Assembly: GCA_009694265.1 (NCBI GenBank)
Contig: SHVM01000002.1
Coordinates: forward strand, 1 to 64,000
Reading direction: 5' to 3'
From: Pseudolabrys sp.
GTDB lineage: Bacteria > Pseudomonadota > Alphaproteobacteria > Rhizobiales > Xanthobacteraceae
DNA length: 64,000 bases
The notes beneath the pieces are model-generated. The model saw only the letters and a program-made list of their open reading frames with translations. It did not search any database and was not told the DNA's origin. The translations under genes and the position numbers were made by a program. Positions 13,771 to 57,252 of the stretch are shown here, piece after piece. Position 1 is the stretch's first letter, and the number at the start of each line of letters is the position of its first letter.

Positions 13771-13867
13771 GATCCTTCGAGACGCGGTCCTTCGGCCCGC
13801 TCCTCAGGATGAGGCCTCATGGTTAGGAGCGCAGCAACGCTGCGCGTCTCGAACCATGACTCAGGAT
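13771..13867. repeat. Dispersed palindromic repeat between hemE and hemJ
   Basis: The segment carries CCTTCGAGACGC, CTCCTCAGGATGAGG and a second arm CGTCTCGAACCATGA with internal hairpins (GCGCAGCAACGCTGCGC). CCTTCGAGACGC and CTCCTCAGGA recur between dnaK and dnaJ (51891-51937), placing them in one family. It occupies nearly the whole hemE-hemJ gap, so hemJ is likely either read through it or served by a promoter within it. Confidence 0.65.
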
Positions 13868-21222: not shown

Positions 21223-21807
21223 ATGAGCCGTGACGGTAAACGGCGCCGCGGTCTTAGTTACGAAGAGCGCGTGCTGTGGACGACCGTGACCAAGGCGATC
21301 AAGCCGCTGCGCGGCTCGTCACCTCTCCCATTGGGAGAGGTCGACGCGCGAAGCGCGTCGGGTGAGGGGTTAAAACCTAACGAGAGTCCTAAACCCTCTC
21401 ACCCCGGCCCTCTCCCCAAAGGGGAGAGGGGGCGTACCGAGGTTGCCGCAAAAGCTTCAAAGTCGGCGCCGCAACCAACAGCCCTTGGCCGCCGCATGAA
21501 GCAACGCGTTGCGCGCGGCAAGGAGAAAATCGACGCCCGCCTCGATCTGCACGGCTTCACGCAAAGCGAGGCGCATGGCGCGCTGTTGCGGTTTTTGCGC
21601 AGTGCCAATGCGCGCGACGCGCGTCTGGTGCTGGTGATTACCGGCAAAGGGCGGGGCGGCGAGATCGGTGTGCTGCGCCGCCAGGTGCCGCAATGGCTCG
21701 GGCTGCCGGAATTCCGCGATCTCGTCATCGGCTTTGAAGACGCGCATGCCGCCCATGGCGGCGAAGGCGCGCTTTATGTGCGCGTGCGCAGAGCGAAAAG
21801 CCGCTGA
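21223..21807 (+). CDS. Smr/MutS2-domain protein with an inserted repeat
   Basis: The 194-residue protein carries a C-terminal Smr domain: DLHGFTQSEAHGAL, the LVITGKG motif and the closing HGGEGALYVRVRR. Smr domains are nicking or RNA endonucleases in some proteins. Residues about 34-70 are read from a dispersed palindromic element (SSPLPLGEVDARSASGEG then PGPLPKGERG), so this part is translated repeat, not ancestral protein. The frame stays open through it and both flanks match the family, so the gene is probably intact with an added disordered loop. The gene starts 10 bp after mltA. Confidence 0.9.
   Translation: MSRDGKRRRGLSYEERVLWTTVTKAIKPLRGSSPLPLGEVDARSASGEGLKPNESPKPSHPGPLPKGERGRTEVAAKASKSAPQPTALGRRMKQRVARGKEKIDARLDLHGFTQSEAHGALLRFLRSANARDARLVLVITGKGRGGEIGVLRRQVPQWLGLPEFRDLVIGFEDAHAAHGGEGALYVRVRRAKSR
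21321..21431. repeat. Palindromic repeat inside the smr coding sequence
   Basis: Nested inverted repeats include CCTCTCCCATTGGGAGAGG, GACGCGCGAAGCGCGTC and CCCTCTCCCC with GGGGAGAGGG. This is the shape of the dispersed element also seen at 25662-25780. Here it lies wholly within the smr reading frame without breaking it. Confidence 0.85.
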
Positions 21808-25653: not shown

Positions 25654-25661
25654 CTTCTATA

Positions 25662-25780
25662 CCTCCCCCGCTTGCGGGGGGGAGGTCGGCGCGCGAAGCG
25701 CGACGGGTGGGGGTCAGCGTCGAGGTTGACCCACCCCGGATCGCTACGCGATCCGACCCACCCCTTTCAGGGGAGGGATA
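25662..25780. repeat. Compound palindromic repeat between hisB and the DUF2628 gene
   Basis: The element contains CCTCCCCCGC/GCGGGGGGAGG, GGCGCGCGAAGCGCGAC, TCGCTACGCGA and a closing CCCCTTTCAGGGG hairpin. It shares architecture with the copy inside smr (21321-21431), and its CCTTTCAGG hairpin loop recurs at 58217-58251. It fills most of the gap inside the histidine operon. Confidence 0.8.
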
Positions 25781-25812
25781 AGAAGCAAGGACGTTGCGTT
25801 ACAGGAATTGAA

Positions 25813-51819: not shown

Positions 51820-51937
51820 CCTCATCCTGAGGAGGCCGAAGGCCGTCTCGAAGGATGAGGGCCAGCGTGTTTGCGGCGAGGGAATCGGGGCCTCGTCCTT
51901 CGAGACGCGATCTTGCAGATCGCTCCTCAGGACGAGG
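51820..51937. repeat. Two palindromic repeats between dnaK and dnaJ
   Basis: CCTCATCCT (51820-51828) pairs with AGGATGAGG (51852-51860), and CCTCGTCCTTCGAGACGC (51891 on) pairs with a right arm ending CTCAGGACGAGG at 51937. Arms match the element at 13771-13867. They fill the 149-bp dnaK-dnaJ gap and could reduce dnaJ expression relative to dnaK. Confidence 0.8.
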
Positions 51938-57221: not shown

Positions 57222-57252
57222 TGTCATGCCCGGGTCAAGGCCGGGCATGACA
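57222..57252. terminator. Terminator-like palindrome between gpmA and the ada-like gene
   Basis: TGTCATGCCCGG and CCGGGCATGACA form a perfect 12-bp stem around a 7-nt loop, between converging genes. The sequence belongs to the same dispersed family as 1513-1599. It could end transcription from both sides. Confidence 0.75.

Follow-up and report, generated by a model that had tools for sequence, protein, structure and literature searches.

The smr gene of the window (the whole 64,000-nucleotide stretch of Pseudolabrys DNA analyzed here) carries a copy of a dispersed palindromic repeat within its reading frame, at the position where other Smr proteins of the genus have a native linker. The best-known coding palindromes are those of Rickettsia, and the initial annotation likened the smr palindrome to those elements. 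The likeness holds for its behavior but missed its type: judged by its sequence and architecture, the element consists of two TM/PIT intrastrand-triplex motifs, known from E. coli, in inverted arrangement, with one extra hairpin. The account that we consider probable is that a stop-free doublet of this kind entered the linker of Smr and was read through as a tolerated spacer, that the native linker was lost, and that the same happened separately in the lineage of a second genome, G028.

The palindromic element and its host gene

The smr frame is uninterrupted, and Pfam matches the Smr domain over residues 107-189 (E=4e-22), bearing out the early claims that the frame stays open and that the Smr part is intact. 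The features of the gene and the element are as follows, with the strand given where one is assigned.

21223..21807, + strand: smr open reading frame, 194 aa, with an N-terminal conserved segment (residues 1-31), the repeat-encoded linker and the Smr domain
21541..21789, + strand: Smr domain (Pfam PF01713), intact
21319..21433: element core (115 bp), covering codons 33-71 in a frame free of stops, SPLPLGEVDARSASGEGLKPNESPKPSHPGPLPKGERGR
21322..21340: hairpin H1, CCTCTCCC-ATT-GGGAGAGG
21343..21359: hairpin H2, GACGCGC-GAA-GCGCGTC, its stem strongly covarying among 166 copies
21361..21369: GGTGAGGGG arm, pairing with 21399-21403; within the 5' triplex-motif unit, the putative third-strand segment
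21370..21393: variable spacer separating the two units; the window and G028 Smr copies have different subfamilies of it
21394..21430, - strand: 3' unit, reverse strand CCCTCTCCCCTTTGGGGAGAGGGCCGGGGTGAGAGGG, nearly the E. coli triplex motif type B; includes H3 (21408-21430)
21434..21449: 3' tail GTACCGAGGTTGCCGC, common to the family consensus outside the core

This anatomy comes from an alignment of 166 copies of the repeat. The core runs in the order H1 (CCTCTCCC/GGGAGAGG), H2, GGTGAGGGG, variable spacer, CCCTCTCACCCC and H3 (CCCTCTCCCC/GGGGAGAGGG). H1 and H3 are nearly invariant, and the H2 stem varies: Watson-Crick pairing is found at its five variable pairs in 85-98% of copies, versus 34-64% expected from column composition. 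Base preference extends beyond the core on both sides, by 16 nt at the 3' end and by a few bases at the 5' end. Because the window copy fits this 3' tail, the total repeat (core plus tail) amounts to about 131 bp, from codon 33 to about residue 76. The palindrome had first been placed at residues 34-70 or so; its location inside smr was right, but the limits are codon 33 at the start and about position 21449 at the end. The nested inverted repeats described there are confirmed by folding 21310-21440 with DNA parameters, which gives nested hairpins at -41.4 kcal/mol (z=-6.4), better than 200 of 200 shuffles, none of which equaled it.

Intergenic copies commonly contain TAG in the frame used by Smr, at the H1 loop or in the spacer. 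Where these copies often read TAG, the Smr copies have ATTGGG, plus TTAAAA or TTACAG; the ATT loop of H1 in the window copy sidesteps the TAG that arises in the commoner loop, where ATA precedes GGG. A structure model gives residues 31-80 pLDDT values of 39-52 and the Smr domain mostly 78-95, and the repeat is predicted to occupy a disordered linker. The closest named relatives of the protein are in metagenome-assembled genomes labelled Rhizobiales, Hyphomicrobiales and Pseudolabrys.

The half-element at 21319-21369, like those of copies L107, L040, L050 and L051, gives a full-length match to the Rfam family whalefall-1 (RF01762) at 25-28 bits, below the curated threshold of 37. The matches fall on either strand, depending on the copy, and it may be worth re-examining whether this RNA family is a DNA repeat.

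Repeat class and distribution

By direct sequence comparison, the reverse strand of 21394-21430 is the triplex motif type B except for a few bases. A hairpin, CCCTCNCCC(C)/GGGGAGAGGG, is followed by a third segment of the GGGGTGAGGG type, and two such units stand inverted around a short spacer, the 5' unit having the extra hairpin. Plasmid and E. coli matches align to the 3' unit only. An inverted pair in E. coli (NC_000913, 3045989-3046087) consists of a hairpin, GGGGTGAGGG, a 28-nt spacer, CCCCTCACCC and a hairpin.

The claim that the palindrome is dispersed and also occurs in intergenic DNA was well founded. One other full-length copy lies in the window's genome, on another contig and between genes (83%, E=6e-26), and a weaker match to the core occurs in the window at 25678-25713. 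The repeat is present in 33 of 44 Pseudolabrys-type genomes of the genus at E<1e-5, several of them with at least 20 scored copies, and at the family level in 86 of 200 genomes at E<1e-10; most copies are intergenic. Copies are very few in the window's own genome; it is mainly the relatives that show the repeat nature of the element. An ordinary low-complexity linker can be ruled out, since the DNA is a dispersed repeat that close relatives lack at this site.

The window contains other palindromes. A second, related doublet with two inner hairpins is intergenic at 25655-25789; its parts are ACCTCCCCC...GGGGGAGGT, then CGGCGCGCGAAGCGCG, and GGATCGC...GCGATCC. A large palindrome (TCCTTCGAGACGCGGTCC...) occupies 13773-13853, and its first 42 nt recur at 51896-51937 (83%). 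A dispersed palindrome, ATGCCCGGGTCAAGCCCGGGCATGACA, is found in three copies, at 1574-1600, 2676-2702 and 57226-57252.

Smr across the genus

An alignment of Smr with its relatives was proposed early on as a check that only this lineage has the insert. Nearly all relatives do lack the segment, but G028, another species, carries the same insertion. It is the only one besides the window to do so among 42 genus smr loci, in the same orientation and frame and at a site one codon apart. All 27 of the other aligned genus orthologs have a Pro/Lys/Ala-rich linker at this position. A further 12 genus loci and 40 loci from named genomes had no other copy within smr, and two element-like matches in these added loci sit outside smr. 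The picture of a simple addition to the protein does not stand: the repeat has taken the place of the native linker, which measures about 45 aa in relatives, and has not merely lengthened it. The G028 linker has 51 aa, of which only about 6 are non-repeat, and total linker length with the repeat is near the genus range.

The site is empty in a close relative of G028. The Smr domain of G061 is 93% identical to that of G028 at the DNA level, the first 30 codons differ by one amino-acid change, and the G061 linker is an ordinary one of 45 aa. Given this closeness, the replacement in G028 would postdate its split from G061; for G061 to have regained an ordinary linker would be less simple. Between the G028 copy and dispersed copies of the G035 and G004 genomes, moreover, there are 4 differences, as against 11 between it and the Smr copy of the window, and the spacers of the two Smr copies are of different types. 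On these grounds, parallel insertions in the window's lineage and in G028 are favored, and we hold them to be quite likely.

A single ancestral insertion (or transfer by recombination between the window's species and G028), with loss in G061 and partial rewriting of the copies by conversion, would need no coincidence to account for the like site, orientation and frame. A four-protein tree, which did not include G061, leaves the placement of the two hosts unsettled and does not reject their sisterhood (AU p=0.82), and the QueG copies described below, with similar spacers but different H2 stems, suggest that piecemeal rewriting can occur. However, G061 and G028 are far more closely related than G028 and the window's species, and G061 has the ordinary linker; the G028 copy is nearest to dispersed copies, and the spacer subfamilies of the two Smr copies differ. 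Third-position divergence between the window and G028 is 4/39 in the repeat, as against 45/135 in the rest of smr, so small a value that an old shared insertion would require conversion or constraint. At one stage, a short native linker common to both was taken as proof of a single ancestral insertion, an argument withdrawn when the 3' tail turned out to be part of the repeat. A shared origin of the two insertions, by ancestry or by transfer, seems unlikely to us.

Selection on the gene and on the repeat

Outside the linker, G028 and G061 differ with dN 0.023 and dS 0.202, and in the rest of smr the window and G028 differ with dN 0.134 and dS 0.542, values that point to purifying selection on both conserved flanks. 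Inside the repeat, the window and G028 give dN 0.102 and dS 0.107 over 38 codons with few sites, so that no codon-level selection on the repeat peptide is visible in this comparison, and the proposal of a selected peptide finds no support. At the DNA level, 0 of 50 stem bases differ between the two copies, whereas 11 of the 65 remaining bases do (p=0.002), and the repeat in smr resembles, by its sequence, the other copies of its family.

The repeat-encoded linker or the mRNA hairpins could have gained a function, such as binding, length control, slowed translation or mRNA stability. The identical hairpin arms of the two Smr copies, a total linker length close to that of the genus and two independent acquisitions at one site would all fit such a gain. 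The lack of amino-acid constraint in the repeat and the missing segment in other species argue the other way, and because intergenic copies have equally uniform hairpin arms, arm uniformity is a property of the family; a gained function is accordingly improbable. Far less credible still is the reading that the element breaks the gene, with translation starting after the repeat, or that it marks an assembly join across a repeat. Met92 is a possible start downstream of the repeat, and repeats can cause misassembly, but both flanks are smr and mltA adjoins the gene, as it does at 29 of 30 loci of the genus. Furthermore, an independent genome shows the same arrangement, N-terminal smr codons change mainly at third positions, and G028 and G061 differ by a single amino acid in the first 30. 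The neutral spacer remains the preferred reading.

Copies in other genes

A survey of in-gene copies relied on coding scores of the flanks, from a simple codon model that can miss cases, and on reading of the spanning frames. Five cases emerged among 166 copies: Smr (window and G028), TilS (G023) and QueG (G004 and G033). This count leaves out L055, which has no NCBIfam family, and L130, which has weak FAD-subunit matches. Long open frames at L036, L108 and L132 were not counted either, since their composition and coding score mark them as probably antisense, and the SDR and FliQ-like cases L224, L241 and L156 are intergenic, with the conserved protein starting after the repeat. The suggested search for other proteins with the repeat signature was negative in the window's genome, although TilS and QueG of relatives do carry the repeat.

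In TilS of G023 the repeat lies between the N- and C-terminal parts, fused to a second repeat, and 18 of 18 aligned TilS orthologs have an empty site. The peptide of the second repeat, SKSDLSDFDHLECPNSGKPEFGW, is encoded just upstream of the element (L148/L185), and similar stretches are matched elsewhere in the genus. In QueG of G004 and G033 there is no ATG, GTG or TTG between the repeat and the conserved core, and by this start-codon argument the repeat is probably within the N-terminal coding part; in several other QueG orthologs a TTG start candidate precedes the conserved core. The copies at the queG position, L040 (G004) and L131 (G033), have similar spacers but H2 stems of GACATGC/GCATGTC and GGATCGC/GCGATCC, respectively, each complementary, as if the H2 hairpin had been exchanged as one unit. 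Two more QueG N-terminal frames, L279 (G029) and L281 (G010), contain other repeat-like sequence (DPYPQPLPTRGRG and DPHPQPLPTKGRS) at the same junction.

Two positions may be recurrent: the Smr linker, in two lineages, and the gst-queG junction, in two species with this repeat and in two more with the other repeat-like sequence, as judged by eye. Triplex-motif doublets might repeatedly enter the same gene positions and displace disordered linkers, with total length staying in range, and so be a recurrent donor of linker peptides. We offer this generalization as a speculation that is rather doubtful; if true, repeat DNA would be a recurrent source of linker peptides.

A proposed course of events

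In the proposed course of events, a dispersed inverted triplex-motif doublet of about 131 bp would have entered smr at the disordered linker that separates the N-terminal segment from the Smr domain. Its orientation and frame were free of stops, which would allow the ribosome to read through and both conserved parts of the protein to be kept, with an unstructured peptide encoded by the repeat as their link. Loss of the native linker, of about 45 aa, would have come at insertion or later and left total linker length almost the same. Such an event would have occurred a second time, separately, in the G028 lineage. If the protein is made, as we infer, the peptide would serve as a tolerated, neutral spacer, with the repeat kept as DNA and its hairpin arms identical.

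As to mobility, flanking direct repeats showed no excess over shuffled pairs, with element ends uncertain by a few bases. A Y1 transposase (PF01797) scores over the cut-off in 4 of 44 genomes and in none of the copy-rich G004, G013, G028 and G033; a RAYT was rejected as the mover, because the Y1 transposase family has no association with copy number.

In these genomes, a repeat class of very wide occurrence, which in E. coli is linked to intergenic DNA and genome instability, has entered conserved genes in a different bacterial order. The close filled and empty species pair, G028 and G061, makes the event testable, and the parallel replacement of one linker is a tractable case of repeat DNA turning into protein sequence. 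No earlier report of a TM/PIT-type doublet with an added hairpin in genes was found among the open-licence papers searched.

Relation to known palindromic elements

Br-REP1 and Br-REP2 of Bradyrhizobium are dispersed palindromes reported from intergenic regions (PMC5082802). They resemble the element in being dispersed palindromes of related Hyphomicrobiales, but their published consensus sequences differ from it. The enterobacterial, Neisserial and Yersinia MITEs ERIC/RU-1, NEMIS and YPAL are small, non-autonomous and hairpin-forming, with open frames fused to genes (PMC2229807). The smr element is likewise small and hairpin-forming, with an open frame fused to a gene; no target-site duplication signal was found beside it, its ends being uncertain by a few bases, and its architecture differs from theirs.

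The Rickettsia palindromic elements (RPE) are 105-146 bp with long stem-loops, either intergenic or fused in frame in conserved genes, and mostly tolerated (PMC2229807). The element here, with about 131 bp and stem-loops, is in frame in the conserved genes for Smr, TilS and, by start-codon inference, QueG. However, its hosts are Hyphomicrobiales (Pseudolabrys-type) rather than Rickettsia, its architecture is that of the triplex motif, and its in-gene share is small, 5 of 166 surveyed copies. By analogy the element works like an RPE, but it is not filed as one because the host differs and the likeness is drawn from size, stem-loops and behavior, not from sequence.

The closest known relative is TM(ECO), earlier called the PIT motif, which occurs in more than 260 genomes and whose MG1655 copies are reported to be always intergenic (Holder et al. 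2015, PMC4666352). The 3' unit of the element is nearly type B; some E. coli motifs are likewise inverted pairs, and the pair cited above has its parts in the same order. The element differs in the covarying H2 of its 5' unit and in its conserved 3' tail. It also lies inside protein genes (smr, tilS), in contrast to the always intergenic motif reported from MG1655 (PMC4666352), but intergenic location is descriptive for TM/PIT rather than defining.
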